A DNA stretch of 9,775 nt from positions 1-9,775 of the forward strand of contig JASLLL010000052.1 of assembly GCA_030747075.1 (NCBI GenBank). The letters run 5' to 3'. The position numbers were made by a program, and so were the translations under genes. The first letter of the stretch is position 1. Each line of letters begins with the position of its first letter. This stretch comes from Gemmatimonadota bacterium. Its GTDB lineage: Bacteria; ARS69. Under the pieces are notes generated by a model. That model saw nothing but the letters and a program-made list of their open reading frames with translations. It was not told the DNA's origin and did not search any database. Shown one piece after another: positions 14 through 9,775 of this stretch.

Positions 14-1171
14 ATGTTTCGCGACGCCGGAGAAGGTCTGCACCTGTTCGAGACAGCACTCGGTGTGTGTGCGTTCTCGTGGACTCCTCGCGGGGTGGAT
101 CGGTTTGTCCTGCCGTCTGAGAATCGCGCGGCGGTCGTCCGGTGGCTGCGCGCGGAAGGGGAGGAGCGCAGCGAAACGGATCGCCCGCCGCGGGTGGTCT
201 CTCTGGTGGCGCGGCGAGTGCGTGCGCACCTCGGCGGGAAGCCGGACAGTTTGCGCGACATTCCGGTGGATCTTCAGGTGGCGCCGTTTTCAGGGCGCGT
301 CTACCGCGCGCTCCGCCGCGTGGATCCCGGGGAGGTCGTGACCTACGGGGAACTCGCGCGTCGGGCGCGTTCCCCGGGCGCGTCTCGTGCAGTGGGGCGC
401 GCCATGGCGACCAATCCCGTGCCGCTCCTCGTGCCGTGCCACCGTGTTCTGACGCACTCGGGGGGGCTGGGCGGATTCACCTCCGAAGGCGGACTTCCGC
501 TGAAAGCGCGGATGCTGCATGCGGAGGGGGTCATCCCGGATGAATCGCACTCGCGCGGGATGGCGCATCTTTCGCGTCGGGATCCGGTTCTGCGTCGAAT
601 CATCCGCGGCGTGGGGCCGTACACCGCGGGAATCGGGGCGCCGGGAGATCCGTACGATGTGCTGGTGGAATCGATCATTCACCAGCAGATCTCGATGAAG
701 GCCGCCGCGACCATCGCCGGGCGGGTTCGCGCGTTGACCGATGGCCCGGCATTCCCGCGCCCGCACGACTTCCTCGGGGCGGACGGGCGCCGTCTTCGCA
801 AGGCGGGGCTCTCGAAGCAGAAGGTGTCCTACCTGCGCGATCTGTCGCGCGCGGTCGAGTCGGGCGAACTTCGCCCGGGGGCGCTCCGCCGGCATGACGA
901 CGAACAGGTGGTCGAGTGCCTGACGCGCGTCCGCGGGATCGGGCGGTGGTCGGCCGAGATGTTCCTGATCTTCCACCTCGGGAGGCTGGACATTCTCCCG
1001 GTGGACGATCTGGGCCTTCGCGCGGGGATCCAGGCGGCCTACGCGCTGGCCGAACCGCCGACCAAGGCCGAGGCGCTGGCCAAGGGTGAAGACTGGCGGC
1101 CTTTCCGGTCGATGGCGACCTGGTATCTGTGGCAGCACCTGAAGCGGGAAGCGGAACGGAGGACGCGATGA
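14..1171 (+). CDS. Fused O6-alkylguanine-DNA alkyltransferase / AlkA-type 3-methyladenine DNA glycosylase
   Basis: This 385-residue protein joins two DNA alkylation repair activities. Residues about 1-176 are an Ogt/MGMT-type suicide alkyltransferase. They contain the PCHRV active-site motif with acceptor Cys142, the VTYGELA segment, a probable arginine finger at Arg125 (SRAVG), Asn134, and the GGL..K..ML..EG tail. Residues about 180-380 are an HhH-GPD glycosylase of the AlkA type. They contain the IIHQQIS helix (221-227), a helix-hairpin-helix around RGIGRWSAEMF (307-317), and LPVDD, where Asp332 aligns with the catalytic Asp238 of E. coli AlkA. By family knowledge the first half removes alkyl groups from guanine O6 and the second excises N-alkylated purines. 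No Ada-type regulatory zinc domain precedes the alkyltransferase. The ATG at 14 is supported by AGGGGG at 1-6 and by the family N-terminus. The stop overlaps the next start as ATGA. Confidence 0.9.
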   Translation: MFRDAGEGLHLFETALGVCAFSWTPRGVDRFVLPSENRAAVVRWLRAEGEERSETDRPPRVVSLVARRVRAHLGGKPDSLRDIPVDLQVAPFSGRVYRALRRVDPGEVVTYGELARRARSPGASRAVGRAMATNPVPLLVPCHRVLTHSGGLGGFTSEGGLPLKARMLHAEGVIPDESHSRGMAHLSRRDPVLRRIIRGVGPYTAGIGAPGDPYDVLVESIIHQQISMKAAATIAGRVRALTDGPAFPRPHDFLGADGRRLRKAGLSKQKVSYLRDLSRAVESGELRPGALRRHDDEQVVECLTRVRGIGRWSAEMFLIFHLGRLDILPVDDLGLRAGIQAAYALAEPPTKAEALAKGEDWRPFRSMATWYLWQHLKREAERRTR

Positions 1172-2359: not shown

Positions 2360-2614
2360 GTGCCGGATCAGGAACTCACCATCCGACTCCATGCGCACGC
2401 GGCCGATCTGGCCGGGGTGCGGGAGATTCGCGCGCCCGGGGGTGCGGGGGATACCGCAAAGGACGTGAAAGACGCGCTCGCGCGGGTCTGCCCTCCGCTG
2501 GCGCCGCTTCTGCCTTCGTGTGTTCTGGCTACGGATTCCGAGTATCTTCCGGATTCCGGGGTGGTCGAAGGGGACCGCACTCTCCATCTGATCCCACCCG
2601 TCAGCGGAGGCTGA
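2360..2614 (+). CDS. moaD: Molybdopterin synthase sulfur-carrier subunit MoaD
   Basis: This 84-residue beta-grasp protein has the MoaD/ThiS architecture. The decisive feature is the C-terminal LHLIPPVSGG (75-84), whose terminal Gly-Gly is adenylated and converted to a thiocarboxylate that donates sulfur to precursor Z in the MoaD-MoaE complex. EGDRTLHLIPP matches the conserved strand before the tail. The open frame extends far upstream without stops, but that extension lies opposite the reductase gene and does not look like protein. The GTG at 2360 gives the family's normal length and follows GGAGGGG (2350-2356), though the spacer is only 3 bases. It leads a moaD-moaE-moaA run and sits 3 bases before moaE. 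Confidence 0.88.
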   Translation: MPDQELTIRLHAHAADLAGVREIRAPGGAGDTAKDVKDALARVCPPLAPLLPSCVLATDSEYLPDSGVVEGDRTLHLIPPVSGG

Positions 2615-2617
2615 TCC

Positions 2618-3082
2618 GTGCCCACGAGAATCCTCTCCCGCATTACTCAGGACCCGCTCCACGAAGCGGAGCTTCTCCGGTTTGTGGAGACTCCCGCGTC
2701 GGGGGGCGTGGTCCTCTTCTCGGGAGTCGTGCGAAACCTGCACGAAGGGCGCGCCGTTCACTCCATCGACTACTCCGCCGCCGAGGAACTGGCGTCGGTG
2801 AAGCTGGCCGCGATCTGTGCGGAAGTGCTGGAGGCCGAAGATGTCCACCGCGTGGCGGCGGTCCATCGGCTGGGCCTCCTTCAGGTGGGGGAGCCGAGCA
2901 TTCTGGTGGCCGCGTCGTCCGCACACCGGGACACGGCATTCCGTGCCGCGCGGCAGCTGATCGACCGCGTCAAGGAGGTGCTTCCCGTCTGGAAGCGGGA
3001 ACACTTCGACGATGGCGAAACGAAGTGGTCGGCGGGGACGCGCGTTCCGACTTCCGTCCGCACCGGGGAGGCGTCGCCATGA
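2618..3082 (+). CDS. moaE: Molybdopterin synthase catalytic subunit MoaE
   Basis: This 154-residue protein is the catalytic subunit that converts precursor Z (cPMP) to molybdopterin using two MoaD thiocarboxylates. Family segments appear in order: GGVVLFSGVVRN (29-40), IDYSAAEELA (50-59), HRLGLLQVGE (83-92), SSAHRDTAF (100-108) and the catalytic-site RVKEVLPVWKRE (117-128). Lys119 and Lys126 fall at the same residue numbers as the two key lysines of E. coli MoaE. The start is GTG at 2618, with CGGAGG at 2605-2610 acting as ribosome-binding site inside the 3' end of moaD. The stop overlaps the moaA start as ATGA, so the three subunits are probably made from one message. Confidence 0.93.
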   Translation: MPTRILSRITQDPLHEAELLRFVETPASGGVVLFSGVVRNLHEGRAVHSIDYSAAEELASVKLAAICAEVLEAEDVHRVAAVHRLGLLQVGEPSILVAASSAHRDTAFRAARQLIDRVKEVLPVWKREHFDDGETKWSAGTRVPTSVRTGEASP

Positions 3083-4065
3083 GCCTGTTGGATGCGCACG
3101 GACGCTCCATCGTGAACCTCCGCGTTTCGGTGACGGACCGGTGCAACCTTCGGTGCGCCTATTGCCTTCCGCACGAGAATGTAGAGTGGATCCCGCGCGC
3201 GGAGATTCTCTCGTACGAGGAGATCGTGCGCTTCGTTCGAGTGGTGGCGCCTCTCGGCATTCGCAAGGTGCGCCTGACAGGCGGGGAACCGCTCCTTCGA
3301 AAAGACCTGCCGGATCTTGTGAAGCGCATCGTGTCCGTCCCGGGCATTGAGGATGTGGGCATGACGACGAACGGGATTGGACTGGATCGCATGGCGGACC
3401 CTCTTCTTCGCGCGGGGCTTCGTCGCGTGAATGTGAGCCTGGACACGCTGGACGGGGGAGTCTTCCGCGAACTCACGCGCCGGGATTCGCTGGAAGCGGT
3501 TCTTCGCGGGCTGGACGCCGCGTTGAGCGTCGGTTTTCGCCCGGTGAAGATCAATGCCGTCATCCGGCGCGGGATCAACGACGACGCCATCCTTCCGTTG
3601 GCGGGATGGGCGCGGGAGAAGGGGTGTGTGCTGCGCTTCATCGAGTACATGCCGATCGGGAACGACCGCTGGAACGCGGACATGGTGGTCACGAACGCGG
3701 AGATTCTGCGAGTTCTCTCCGAAGGCGTGGGGCCCCTTCTTCCTGTGGAGGAGAGCGCGAAGGCCGGACCCGCCGCGCGCTGGCGCTACGAGGACGGCGG
3801 CGGTGAGGTGGGACTCATCGGAAGCGTGACGGAGCCTTTCTGCGGCCGGTGCGACCGCATCCGCGTCACCTCCGACGGGAAGCTGCGCACCTGCCTCTTT
3901 TCCACGGCGGAACGGGATCTTCGGGAACTGCTGCGCGAAGGGGGAACGGACGCGGAGATCGCGGACCTTGTGCGGAAGGCGGTGGACCGCAAGGAACCCG
4001 GCCACCGTATCGGGCAGGAGGATTTCGTCCGACCGGATCGAACCATGTCGGCGATCGGGGGTTGA
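3079..4065 (+). CDS. moaA: GTP 3',8-cyclase MoaA (radical SAM)
   Basis: This 328-residue radical SAM enzyme catalyses the first step of molybdenum cofactor synthesis: cyclisation of GTP to 3',8-cyclo-dihydro-GTP, which MoaC then turns into cPMP. The N-terminal cluster motif is CNLRCAYC (Cys22, Cys26, Cys29). LTGGEPLLR (67-75) is the SAM-binding GGEP region. The second, C-terminal cluster has Cys255, Cys258 and Cys272 in the FCGRCDR and LRTCLF segments. The protein ends in MSAIGG, carrying the C-terminal Gly-Gly that MoaA needs for activity. The ATG at 3079 overlaps the moaE stop (ATGA) and gives the normal family start; the frame stays open upstream only as a G+C-rich shadow of moaD and moaE. 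moaC is not in the window. Confidence 0.95.
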   Translation: MSLLDAHGRSIVNLRVSVTDRCNLRCAYCLPHENVEWIPRAEILSYEEIVRFVRVVAPLGIRKVRLTGGEPLLRKDLPDLVKRIVSVPGIEDVGMTTNGIGLDRMADPLLRAGLRRVNVSLDTLDGGVFRELTRRDSLEAVLRGLDAALSVGFRPVKINAVIRRGINDDAILPLAGWAREKGCVLRFIEYMPIGNDRWNADMVVTNAEILRVLSEGVGPLLPVEESAKAGPAARWRYEDGGGEVGLIGSVTEPFCGRCDRIRVTSDGKLRTCLFSTAERDLRELLREGGTDAEIADLVRKAVDRKEPGHRIGQEDFVRPDRTMSAIGG

Positions 4066-5651: not shown

Positions 5652-7307
5652 TCATCGAAACGGCACATGCTCCCGGGAGAAGTACTCCTTCGTCTGCCCC
5701 CGCACCTTCCCGGTCAGCAGGAAGATGGCGATGAGGTTCGGGATACTCATCAGCCCCAGCGCAAGATCCCCGAACGCCCACACCACTTCCAGCGCCAGCA
5801 CCGCGCCGAGGAACACGAACGCCGTGTACAGCAACCGGTAGATCCGAACCGCACCGATCCCGAAGATGTACTCCGTGCAACGGTCGCCGTAATACGACCA
5901 CGAGATGGTGGTGGAGAGCGCGAAGAGGAAGACGGACAGCGTCACGATCCACTTGCCGATGACTCCAAGGCGATCTCCCAGTCCGCGCTGGAACGCCCAG
6001 GTGGTGAGTGCGGAGGAGTTGAGGAGGATCTTCCCGCCGTAGCGAAGGCTCTCGCCGCCCACGAGCGCGCCGGATTCCGCGCGGAGCATCCCGGTGAACG
6101 GGGTTCCGTCGGCGTCCAGCACGAGCGCGTCGAGTACGAACCCGTCGTTCACCGAAAGGGCCGCGCCGGTGAGAAGTCCTTCGGTGACCGGGAACTCCGC
6201 GGAAAGAGGAGGCGCGTCCGCGACCACATCCCCGCGGACCGGCGTGGCGAGGACGGTATGGATGGAGCAGGATGACAGCGCATCCTCCACCGGCTTGTGC
6301 GCGGACCACGAACCCGTCAGCACGATCACCAGACCGGTCATCGTGCAGATCATGAGCGTGTCGATGAACGGACCGAGCATGGCCACGAGGCCTTCCCGTG
6401 CCGGTTCATCGGTCTTGGCCGCGGCGTGCGCGATGGGGGCGCTGCCCTGTCCGGCCTCGTTGGAGAAGAGCCCGCGTTTGACTCCCCAGATGAGCGTCGT
6501 CACGAAGACTCCCGCGGCGGTTCCCCCGACACCGGCGGTCGGGTTGAAGGCTTCGCGCAGGATGAGCGCGAACGCATCCGGGATCTCTCCGATGTGCCGG
6601 ACCAACACCGTGAGCGCACCGAGCGCGTAGAGCACGAACATGGTCGGCGCGAGGCGCGAGGAGACCGCCGCAATCCGGCGGATACCGCCCAGGATGACCA
6701 GACCGACCACGGCCGCCATGACGAGACCGGTGATCCAGGTGGGCGCGCCCAGCGTCGTGTGCGCGGAGAGGCTGACCGTATTCGCCTGATTCATGTTCCC
6801 GCTGCCGAAGCTGCAGATGACTCCGCAGAATGCGAAGAACAGTGCCATCGGCTTCCAGTTCTTCCCGAGTCCGCGCTCGATGTAGTACATGGGTCCGCCC
6901 GCCGCTTCGTTCTTCTCGTCGAAGACGCGATGTCGCATGGAGAGCGTGCATTCGGTGTACTTGAGCGCCATGCCGAAGACCGCGGTGACCCACATCCAGA
7001 AGAGCGCCCCCGGGCCGCCGTAGTGGATTGCCGTGGCGACTCCGGCAATGTTCCCGATTCCCACGGTGGCGGAAAGTGCGGTCGTCAGCGCCTGGAAGTG
7101 GGAGATGTCGCCGCTGTGGGATGGGTCGTCGTAGCGTCCGCGCACCACATCCCATGCGTGACGAAACCCCCGGAACTGAATGAAGGCGAGCCGGAGCGTG
7201 ACGAACAACCCGGCGGAAAGGAGAAGGGCCACGAGAAGGGGGAACTTCGCGGGCCAGCCCCAGACGAACCGATTGCCGACATGAACGAAGGTCTCAAAGA
7301 ACTCCAT
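5652..7307 (-). CDS. AGCS-family sodium:alanine/glycine symporter with an enlarged loop
   Basis: This 551-residue membrane protein is a member of the alanine-or-glycine:cation symporter family, which imports small amino acids with sodium. Hallmarks are ALSATVGIGNIAGVATAI (77-94), AAGGPMYYIERGLG (135-148), GSGNMNQANTVS (168-179), KRGLFSNEAGQGSAPIAHAAA (277-297) and the late segment LFALSTTISWSYYGDRCTEY (461-480). Many hydrophobic helices span the length. Typical members are roughly 450-480 residues. The excess lies mainly between TGSW (331-334) and SSALTTWAF (431-439), where family members usually have only a short linker. The ATG at 7307 is preceded by GGAG with a 7-base spacer. The gene converges on the lipoprotein gene, and its upstream gap holds a C9 tract. 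Confidence 0.92.
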   Translation of the reverse strand: MEFFETFVHVGNRFVWGWPAKFPLLVALLLSAGLFVTLRLAFIQFRGFRHAWDVVRGRYDDPSHSGDISHFQALTTALSATVGIGNIAGVATAIHYGGPGALFWMWVTAVFGMALKYTECTLSMRHRVFDEKNEAAGGPMYYIERGLGKNWKPMALFFAFCGVICSFGSGNMNQANTVSLSAHTTLGAPTWITGLVMAAVVGLVILGGIRRIAAVSSRLAPTMFVLYALGALTVLVRHIGEIPDAFALILREAFNPTAGVGGTAAGVFVTTLIWGVKRGLFSNEAGQGSAPIAHAAAKTDEPAREGLVAMLGPFIDTLMICTMTGLVIVLTGSWSAHKPVEDALSSCSIHTVLATPVRGDVVADAPPLSAEFPVTEGLLTGAALSVNDGFVLDALVLDADGTPFTGMLRAESGALVGGESLRYGGKILLNSSALTTWAFQRGLGDRLGVIGKWIVTLSVFLFALSTTISWSYYGDRCTEYIFGIGAVRIYRLLYTAFVFLGAVLALEVVWAFGDLALGLMSIPNLIAIFLLTGKVRGQTKEYFSREHVPFR

Positions 7308-7408: not shown

Positions 7409-8473
7409 TCAGGAGGTTCCGAGGAGTCTCTCCGCGAAGCGCACCAGTCCGAGAGGCCCGGTCATCATCATGTCGCCGCCGGGAGCGGGAAAGAGAGTGT
7501 CGAGATCGGTCTCGAGAAGGAGGCCCCGGTTCGGCCCGGTAACGAGGATCCGTTCCACGGCGTGGAAGCCGGGCGGGTCGAAGTGCACGGCGCCCTCGCC
7601 TCCGTCTTCGCGAACCTGCTCGTCCGAAAAGTCACCGTCCGCGAATCGGCGGAGCGTGTCGCCGAGTTCAAAGGCACGCTTGCGGAACATACGCGTGTGA
7701 TGCTCCATGGCGGAAAGGATGCGGTCGCCTCGGAAGACACCCGCCATCAGGTGGCAGTTTCCGACATTCACCAGCAGGTCCACCCCGTCGCTCGGGAGTT
7801 CGGCGCGGCAGCCCATGAGCGCGGACATGGGCGTGTCCGCCGCAAGAGCCGGGACACCGGGGAGGTCTCTCGCCAGACGATCGAGTCCTGACTGCATGCG
7901 ATGGAAGCCATCGGGCAGGTCGTCGCGTGTGAACGCCAGGGCGGAAGGATGCGGGTTTTCGGAGAGGCGCTCCGCGAAGGTCCGGAATCGGGACACGCGA
8001 TTCAGCTCCCCCTCCTCGTACGCACCGTGGTCCTGCACGGCGAACGCGACGGCGTCGAGGTTGTCGAGGTCTTCGTCGTGCGCGTGGAGAAAGTCCCGAA
8101 GCGCGGGAATCTCCATTTCGTCGAGATGAATGCGCGTGCCGCTGCCGGAGTCTTCCGGGAGGTCGTCCGCGACTTCGATGCCGGCCTTTCGAACATCCTC
8201 GACGCGGTTCCGCACGAGAAAGCAGGTGCGGGAAGTGGTTCGGACGCGGTGCCCCTTTTTCACGAGTTCGCGGAGCGCGTAAGCAAGGGGGCCTCCGCCG
8301 ACGGTGTCGCCCACGACATCCAGATCGCCCGGTCTGGAGAGCACCCGGTCCGCATAGCGTTGGGCCGGAGCCCCGACGACCACCTTGACGCAGTTCTCCA
8401 GGTTTCGGGTGGAGTCGTAGAGAAGGACATCCTTGGTGCCGTGCCCGATGTCGATGGCGAGGATGCGGCTCAT
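7409..8473 (-). CDS. DUF1786-family protein, ASKHA-like probable nucleotide-binding protein
   Basis: This 354-residue protein resembles DUF1786, a family sometimes named as a putative pyruvate formate-lyase activating enzyme although it lacks a radical SAM motif. Visible features are the N-terminal MSRILAIDIGHGTKDVLLYD (1-20), a phosphate-1-type loop of actin/Hsp70/sugar-kinase folds; DTVGGGPLAYALRE (56-69); DAVAFAVQDHG (140-150); a phosphate-2-like LLVNVGNCHLMAGVF (233-247); and the C-terminal MMMTGPLGLV (335-344). ATP binding is inferred from these motifs; the reaction and substrate are unknown. The ATG at 8473 overlaps the stop of the FmdE-like gene as ATGA. No ribosome-binding site is visible before it, so translation probably depends on coupling to that gene. 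An in-frame upstream extension to 8578 lies inside the FmdE-like gene and is rejected. Confidence 0.75.
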   Translation of the reverse strand: MSRILAIDIGHGTKDVLLYDSTRNLENCVKVVVGAPAQRYADRVLSRPGDLDVVGDTVGGGPLAYALRELVKKGHRVRTTSRTCFLVRNRVEDVRKAGIEVADDLPEDSGSGTRIHLDEMEIPALRDFLHAHDEDLDNLDAVAFAVQDHGAYEEGELNRVSRFRTFAERLSENPHPSALAFTRDDLPDGFHRMQSGLDRLARDLPGVPALAADTPMSALMGCRAELPSDGVDLLVNVGNCHLMAGVFRGDRILSAMEHHTRMFRKRAFELGDTLRRFADGDFSDEQVREDGGEGAVHFDPPGFHAVERILVTGPNRGLLLETDLDTLFPAPGGDMMMTGPLGLVRFAERLLGTS

Positions 8474-9162
8474 GAGGGGGACCGCCCGGTTTCGTCGAGG
8501 TCCCGGGGCTCGTAGTAGTGGCCGACTTCGCAGGAGCGGCAGGTCGTGCCCCCCGTGGAGAGGAAGAGCTCTTCGCACTGATCGCAGGCGACGACCGGTG
8601 TATCGATGCCGAGTTCACGGGTGGTCATCCGGACCGGTGTGGCGGTCAGGACCTTGCGGCGTGCTTCCAGCACCTGGAGTGAGACGGGCGCCCAGCGCTC
8701 GCCCTTCGGCACGGAGTGGTCGAGCAGGCGGCGGAACCAGTGGTCGATGGCCGGGAACTCCGGCGTGCGGCGGGTATCGAGGTGAATGCGATAACCGAGC
8801 CCGGTGTCCTTGTCATAAAAGGTGCAGGCGATCTTGTGCAGGTCCCGGACGCGGAACTGTGTCTTCCCGAGACGATGCCGCAGCACGGTGTGGATTCCGC
8901 TCGGGAGGCAGAGCCAGCTTTCGATGACCGTTCCCATGCGCTTGGTCTCCGGCATGAGTTCCAGCGCCCAGTCGGCCATGAAGACGGCGATCAAGGTGCC
9001 GGGGACCGGAAATCCGTGGAACTCAATCGCGAGGCGGATGAGGTCGTTGAGGGTGTACTCGTCCGGCCGGGCTTCCGTCGCGGAGCCGGGGGGGGATTCG
9101 CCGCGTCGTCCTCGTTCGATGAGGTCGACCACTCGCTTTGCGTCGGAGTCGGGTGCGGTCAT
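8470..9162 (-). CDS. FmdE-like domain protein with C-terminal zinc ribbon
   Basis: This 230-residue protein resembles the FmdE (formylmethanofuran dehydrogenase subunit E) domain, a widespread family not confined to methanogens. Core segments are FHGFPVPGTLIAVFMADWAL (48-67), corresponding to the usual HGHLCPG region; TVIESWLCL (78-86); HRLGKTQFRVRDLHKIACTFY (96-116); and GLGYRIHLD (121-129). Residues 193-211 form a zinc ribbon with Cys193, Cys196, Cys208 and Cys211. Several family-typical metal-binding positions appear replaced: the Cys and second His of HGHLCPG are Val53 and Phe51, and the Cys of the GC-TxGK-type segment is His96. Only Cys85 seems kept. The ATG at 9162 has AGAGGAGA on its strand with an 8-base spacer. 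It lies 40 bases after the cysteine desulfurase gene and overlaps the DUF1786 gene. Its function is unknown. Confidence 0.62.
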   Translation of the reverse strand: MTAPDSDAKRVVDLIERGRRGESPPGSATEARPDEYTLNDLIRLAIEFHGFPVPGTLIAVFMADWALELMPETKRMGTVIESWLCLPSGIHTVLRHRLGKTQFRVRDLHKIACTFYDKDTGLGYRIHLDTRRTPEFPAIDHWFRRLLDHSVPKGERWAPVSLQVLEARRKVLTATPVRMTTRELGIDTPVVACDQCEELFLSTGGTTCRSCEVGHYYEPRDLDETGRSPS

Positions 9163-9202
9163 GGGGAGGGTCTCCTCTTGAGCGGATGGTATTCCTGATG
9201 GC

Positions 9203-9775
9203 TCATGCGGGGAACAGCGGCTGTCCGCAACACTCATCCGAGCCGTCGCCCGGCGGTGCGGCCTGTCCTTGTGCGATGGCGGCGTATGCGCGCGCGCTTT
9301 CCACGGCTCCCGGAATGCGCCGGAGGACTTCGTCGATGTCTTCGCCGGTCGTGTGGATGCCCAGACTGAAGCGGATGGATCCGTCCACGCGCGAGGCGTC
9401 CATGCCCATGGCGCGGAGGACATGCGAGGGGCGGGGATCTCCGGCGGCGCAGGCGGAACCCCGGCTGGCCGCGATCCCTTCCAGCGCGAGGGCATTGACG
9501 AGCGCGCGCCCGGGGACAGCGCCGAGATGGAGGTGCGTGGTGTTCGGGAGCCTGCCCGCGCGATCGCCGTTGACGGACGCACCGGGGAGCGCCGCGACAA
9601 TCCCTTCCTCCAGGCGGTCGCGAAGCGTGGCGCACTTCGCCAGTGCCGCTGCCCACGCGGGCTTGCGCACTTCCCGGGTCCATGCGTGAAGCCCGGCCAA
9701 TGCGGGGATGTCCGGCGTTCCGGCGCGGAGCCCGCCTTCCTGTTCGCCGCCGTGGACCCTCGCCATGATGCGCAC
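9203..9775 (-). CDS. Cysteine desulfurase (NifS/IscS family), 3' part only
   Basis: The gene runs off the right edge of the window, so only its last 190 codons are present and the start is not visible. The fragment has the PLP-enzyme signatures of cysteine desulfurases: HGGEQEGGLRAGTPD (8-22 of the visible part), the active-site segment ASRGSACAAGDPRPSHVL (103-120) with persulfide-forming Cys109 (visible numbering), and DGSIRFSLGIHTTGEDID (131-148). These enzymes take sulfur from cysteine for iron-sulfur clusters, thiolated tRNA or molybdopterin. The C-terminus carries a short extra tail with two adjacent cysteines (ECCGQPLFPA, visible residues 181-190) that is not a usual NifS feature. The next gene on this strand, the FmdE-like one, begins 40 bases later, so they may share a transcript. 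Confidence 0.92.
   Translation of the reverse strand: MRIMARVHGGEQEGGLRAGTPDIPALAGLHAWTREVRKPAWAAALAKCATLRDRLEEGIVAALPGASVNGDRAGRLPNTTHLHLGAVPGRALVNALALEGIAASRGSACAAGDPRPSHVLRAMGMDASRVDGSIRFSLGIHTTGEDIDEVLRRIPGAVESARAYAAIAQGQAAPPGDGSDECCGQPLFPA

Follow-up and report, generated by a model that had tools for sequence, protein, structure and literature searches.

A DUF1786 protein paired with an FmdE-like protein: a candidate helper module for molybdenum and tungsten enzymes

Organization of the FmdE-like and DUF1786 genes

The window (the entire stretch of DNA that we analyzed, 9,775 nucleotides) is a whole contig, and its readable minus-strand sequence begins inside a cysteine desulfurase gene. 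From there, the order of transcription on the minus strand is the end of the desulfurase, an FmdE-like gene, and a gene of the DUF1786 family. The relevant features are as follows.

9203 to 9775, minus strand: C-terminal portion of a NifS/IscS-type cysteine desulfurase, truncated where the contig ends (NCBIfam TIGR03402, 142 bits; PF00266)
9172 to 9176, minus strand: AGGAG, the ribosome-binding site 9 bases 5' of the ATG of the FmdE-like gene (sequence)
8470 to 9162, minus strand: FmdE-like gene, 230 amino acids, FmdE core domain and C4 zinc finger (PF02663, 65 bits; PDB 3d00)
8470 to 8473, minus strand: ATGA, in which the stop codon of FmdE overlaps the start codon of DUF1786 (sequence)
7409 to 8473, minus strand: DUF1786 (PF08735) gene, 354 amino acids, predicted ASKHA fold (Pfam, 171.6 bits; predicted model)
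2369 to 2614, plus strand: moaD (Pfam ThiS, 23.8 bits)
2618 to 3082, plus strand: moaE (Pfam MoaE, 116.3 bits)
about 3031 to 4065, plus strand: moaA (Pfam Mob_synth_C, 119.9 bits)

The DUF1786 ATG (8473 to 8471) shares bases with the FmdE TGA (8472 to 8470), giving ATGA. No Shine-Dalgarno-like site precedes the DUF1786 ATG (...CGGGCGGTCCCCCTC, then ATG). Because the genes overlap and only the FmdE-like gene is preceded by AGGAG, their translational coupling is likely. This agrees with the initial annotation, which had noted the overlap and the missing ribosome-binding site and proposed that the two proteins are made together. The desulfurase lies on the same strand, 40 bp from the FmdE-like gene, and may be the first gene of the same operon.

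The moaD-moaE-moaA genes lie on the opposite strand, 3.3 kb from the pair, and thus outside its operon. An Rfam search of the window gave no match, and no promoter or terminator pattern between positions 7200 and 9775 rose above chance. At the other end of the window (14 to 1171, plus strand), a single open reading frame encodes both a 6-O-methylguanine methyltransferase DNA-binding domain (PF01035) and a DNA glycosylase domain of the HhH-GPD type (PF00730).

DUF1786 has a predicted ASKHA-class fold

The DUF1786 protein is a full-length member of PF08735 (171.6 bits against a cut-off of 25; E = 2.4e-50). The family occurs in both archaea (Methanosarcina acetivorans among them) and bacteria, and one scan of genomes turned up at least 569 stretches that encode it. 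A literature search for DUF1786, PF08735, and COG4012 found no paper in the library covered. The structure predicted from a 59-member alignment had a mean pLDDT of 95.6 and a pTM of 0.93. Its best structural match was FtsA (Z of 14.4, spanning 231 residues), followed by PilM (13.8), diol dehydratase reactivase (13.6), and type III pantothenate kinase and N-acetylmannosamine kinase (13.4 each); a ROK repressor was also among the matches. The top PDB match of the sequence profile was weak, a PPX/GppA phosphohydrolase at an E value of 0.024. Since the Z values are closely spaced, they name a fold class and no single family. The model places DUF1786 in the ASKHA class, as initially annotated, with an actin-like two-domain fold and nucleotide loops, and a protein of this predicted build probably binds ATP.

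Conservation across the 59 sequences was examined with these loops in mind, the assignment of loops to motifs being our reading from sequence order and secondary structure.

8423 to 8452, minus strand: phosphate-1 motif DIGHGTKDVL of DUF1786, with invariant positions in 59 sequences

Within this motif D8, G10, G12, T13, and D15 are conserved, a result biased by the use of the pattern in the search. A phosphate-2-like loop (G238-N239-x-H241) and an adenosine-like loop (T-G-P-x-R316) are also conserved, as are QDHG, EHHT, R162, R192, and D213. DUF1786 therefore shares its predicted fold and the positions of its nucleotide loops with FtsA, PilM, type III pantothenate kinase, ROK kinases, and PPX/GppA, but differs from these families in the additional QDHG and EHHT motifs. 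The Pfam title for this family, “pyruvate formate-lyase activating enzyme,” was ruled out by fold and motifs. The radical-SAM motif CX3CX2C was present in none of the 59 members, so the title does not describe the family, and the window protein had no Pfam match to Radical_SAM.

The FmdE-like protein falls in a clade without the FHGHxC metal motif

The FmdE-like protein matched PF02663 with 65 bits (cut-off, 22.9; E = 9.6e-18), while the FmdE zinc finger PF23475 scored 19.4 bits, below its cut-off of 23.2. Solved members of the PF02663 family are 2glz, 2gvi, and 3d00 (PMC2954224). The nearest to the window protein is 3d00 from Syntrophus aciditrophicus (E = 5.6e-20, residues 36 to 217), and the fold of the window protein is presumed from this match. 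Two sites were of interest.

8509 to 8598, minus strand: C4 zinc finger of the FmdE-like protein (CDQC...CRSC), sub-threshold for PF23475, with four cysteines that align with those of 3d00
8998 to 9021, minus strand: FHGFPVPG, residues 48 to 55, a degenerate FHGHxC metal motif in an alignment of 67 FmdE proteins

The metal motif described for the FmdE family is FHGHxC (PMC2954224), which is typical of its members and not a requirement for membership. The window protein has FHGFPV instead, and the description of it as a degenerate FmdE-like zinc-ribbon protein in the initial annotation was apt, with the zinc finger found at a sub-threshold score. It shares the core domain and the C4 zinc finger with the family, and 3d00 likewise lacks the N-terminal zinc.

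In a tree of the 67 FmdE proteins, the window protein and 3d00 belonged to a clade of 12 members supported at 100/100. FHGHxC is absent from the entire clade, 3d00 included, which retains the zinc finger together with one conserved cysteine. All four of the DUF1786-adjacent FmdEs in this tree belong to the clade (hypergeometric p = 6e-4), and two further DUF1786-adjacent FmdEs from Riflebacteria likewise joined it. Other clade members lie among molybdenum or formate dehydrogenase genes, in the arrangement fdhA-FmdE-fdhD (L152), in an operon with fdhA and modABC (L140), and as fdhA-DUF364-FmdE (L146), and one is fused to the molybdopterin-binding domain PF00994 (L147). The window protein thus differs from the FmdE family at large in its FHGHxC-less clade, its pairing with DUF1786, and its position outside an fmd/fwd operon; no fmd/fwd catalytic gene lies beside it, its neighbors being DUF1786 and the cysteine desulfurase.

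The DUF364/DUF4213 “heavy-metal chelation” protein that separates the formate dehydrogenase gene from the clade FmdE (L146, 2740 to 3486, minus strand) is another candidate molybdenum or tungsten helper.

Pairing of FmdE with DUF1786 is rare yet recurrent

The initial annotation had suggested a survey of how often the two genes adjoin, and adjacency was not confined to the window. Among the 39 genomes of one phylum, identified as the Riflebacteria by the presence of L038, 13 encode DUF1786; directly upstream of it on the same strand lies moeA in 8 of them, FmdE in 3, and neither gene in the other 2. The genes moeA and FmdE thus share one slot directly upstream of DUF1786 in this group. FmdE is the immediate same-strand neighbor in one Riflebacterial locus (L038), and in two further genomes (G422 and G423) the FmdE stop abuts the DUF1786 start; a GTG start would give a four-base overlap with FmdE, and the downstream start codons a gap of a few bases. 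In another bacterium (G087), DUF1786 and FmdE overlap in the order opposite to that of the window, and mogA comes next. A member of the Altiarchaeales (L045) has FmdE and DUF1786 on the same strand approximately 480 bp apart, a loose pairing.

The pairing is nonetheless a rare, minority arrangement. Leaving out the window, FmdE occupied 3 of 168 slots adjacent to DUF1786 versus 1 of 594 far slots, a marginal difference (p = 0.035), and moeA, moaA, or moaB were commoner neighbors. None of 60 FmdE loci from other bacterial genomes had DUF1786 in the flanks retrieved, which spanned approximately 5 kb unless the contig ended sooner. At least four changes are required on the DUF1786 tree to account for the loci with FmdE. 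Constraining the window, L045, and L246 to one DUF1786 clade was not rejected (p-AU of 0.21), so these three may share a cassette. In the phylum of the window, DUF1786 was found in one of five genomes, that of the window itself, which fits either gain by transfer or loss elsewhere. Within the DUF1786 family, the window member is distinguished by its likely coupling to FmdE.

The gene upstream of the pair raises an explanation that we consider very improbable, namely that the trio in the window is a sulfur-handling operon. The desulfurase would supply a molybdoenzyme with sulfur by way of the FmdE-like protein, much as IscS and FdhD do for formate dehydrogenase, with DUF1786 as a helper. The position of the NifS/IscS-type gene, 40 bp before the FmdE-like gene and in the same orientation, fits this scheme, as does the clade FmdE that adjoins fdhD in L152. 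However, the desulfurase gene runs off the contig end, and no cysteine desulfurase was found near the other FmdE-DUF1786 pairs that we searched. As a conserved third member, the desulfurase was rejected, with matches only in L063 and L155.

Molybdenum cofactor genes lie beside DUF1786 in several lineages

We scored the neighbors of 87 DUF1786 loci for molybdenum cofactor (Moco) genes using HMMs seeded with E. coli K-12 Moco proteins, with key calls checked against Pfam. The 80 named loci were selected as the best on resemblance to the window protein and on the phosphate-1 pattern. Genes on fetched contigs were called with a longest-ORF script, so that starts are approximate, and most loci are metagenome assembled. 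With the window excluded, Moco genes occupied 22 of 319 slots at a distance of 1 to 2 from DUF1786 versus 1 of 594 at a distance of 4 or more (Fisher p = 8.6e-10, uncorrected for kinship).

About six lineages have a Moco gene (moeA, moaA, or moaB/mogA) beside DUF1786. In addition to the Riflebacterial moeA and to G087, where mogA follows the pair, one genome (G151) has overlapping DUF1786-moeA-moeA genes, and Proteobacteria and relatives have moaA-MobB-like-DUF1786 and moaA-DUF1786. In Chloroflexi, moaA is divergent from DUF1786, and in Methanosarcinales, moaB is.

Divergent moaA and moaB genes would suit a scheme in which the pair regulates molybdenum and tungsten enzymes or senses metal for them, instead of making cofactor. 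Here, the zinc-finger FmdE would bind nucleic acid or protein, and DUF1786 would act as a nucleotide-dependent switch resembling FtsA/PilM or a ROK repressor, all of which are among its fold matches. The FmdE zinc finger has been proposed to be regulatory (PMC2954224). However, Pfam found no DNA-binding domain in DUF1786, and we regard a regulatory unit as rather unlikely.

Approximately three-quarters of the DUF1786 loci had no Moco gene within two slots. This speaks for DUF1786 serving a different pathway as a small-molecule kinase or phosphatase (ROK, PanK III, or PPX/GppA type), with molybdenum neighbors by chance or through shared regulation. The fold class includes such enzymes, and the weak profile match to PPX/GppA points the same way. 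We judge this unlikely, as the neighborhood signal recurs in about six lineages, among which the Moco gene involved differs, and QDHG and EHHT are unlike the motifs of any kinase family known to us.

Three kinds of profile match were set aside. A MoaA match in L095 (+3) was discarded as a SPASM radical-SAM protein, a MoaA match in L013 (-5) was excluded from the counts after its sequence was judged by eye, and ModC matches were disregarded as unspecific for ABC ATPases.

Proposed role of the pair

Moco biosynthesis is usually regarded as a solved pathway. Since FmdE and DUF1786 recur together across distantly related microbes and their relatives lie beside molybdenum and tungsten cofactor genes, the pair are probably undescribed helpers of molybdenum or tungsten enzymes. 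The initial annotation had suggested a link to cofactor or metal-center handling, and gene context (Moco neighbors of DUF1786; clade FmdEs beside fdhA, fdhD, and modABC) now speaks for it. On this context, we believe that some role in molybdenum or tungsten cofactor metabolism is quite likely, and we lean toward an accessory module that makes or handles the metal-pterin cofactor rather than a regulator.

In such an accessory module, DUF1786 with its putative ATP site would be the driving component. It might act on the finished cofactor, or at or near the MogA/MoeA steps, in which molybdopterin is activated and the metal inserted. The FmdE-like protein would be its partner or a carrier of cofactor toward molybdenum or tungsten enzymes. 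The pair shares a gene neighborhood with the MogA/MoeA/MobAB steps and FdhD-type maturation factors but is not homologous to them and would, if this reading is right, be a parallel accessory. A narrower version, which we put forward tentatively and consider somewhat doubtful, would make DUF1786 an enzyme, so far undescribed, that uses ATP in the biosynthesis or insertion of the molybdenum/tungsten-pterin cofactor, with the FHGHxC-less FmdE clade as its dedicated carrier of cofactor.

DUF1786 adjoins moeA, moaA, or mogA in both prokaryotic domains and in the window is likely coupled to a member of the molybdenum-linked FmdE clade. If the accessory role is true, a widespread unnamed protein with a putative ATP site would supply a missing accessory step of the Moco pathway. 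It would also provide a functional lead for DUF1786 and FmdE, two families whose present names are misleading.

The genome of the window encodes MoaA, MoaE, MoaD, and a NarGH-type nitrate reductase, the last being a candidate client enzyme. Of the eight other DUF1786 genomes that we examined, seven contained an AOR-type enzyme, with a weak match in one of these, and none was found in the Altiarchaeal genome or in that of the window; as a molybdenum or tungsten link, the presence of these enzymes is only suggestive. The G087 genome (83% complete) has one AOR-type protein and no detectable MoaA or PF00384 protein. MoaA was present in six of seven DUF1786 genomes, but because MoaA is common, this co-occurrence is uninformative.

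Other genes beside DUF1786

Several further arrangements were observed around DUF1786. In L013 (9983 to 12477, plus strand), two consecutive moeA genes come right after it. In L027 (516 to 1142) and L031 (1375 to 1992), moaA and DUF1786 are separated by the gene of a MobB-like P-loop protein, which scores just below the Pfam cut-off and may be a divergent MobB or another helper. In seven Deltaproteobacterial loci (L032, L033, L034, L037, L039, L040, and L075), DUF1786 adjoins an RtcB-like gene on one side and, in most of them, a gene resembling the methylguanine methyltransferase open reading frame of the window on the other. In four loci of Methanobacteriaceae (L053, L061, L076, and L078), the two genes after DUF1786 are shared, one encoding what we read from the sequence as a PHP-like phosphoesterase and the other a membrane protein.
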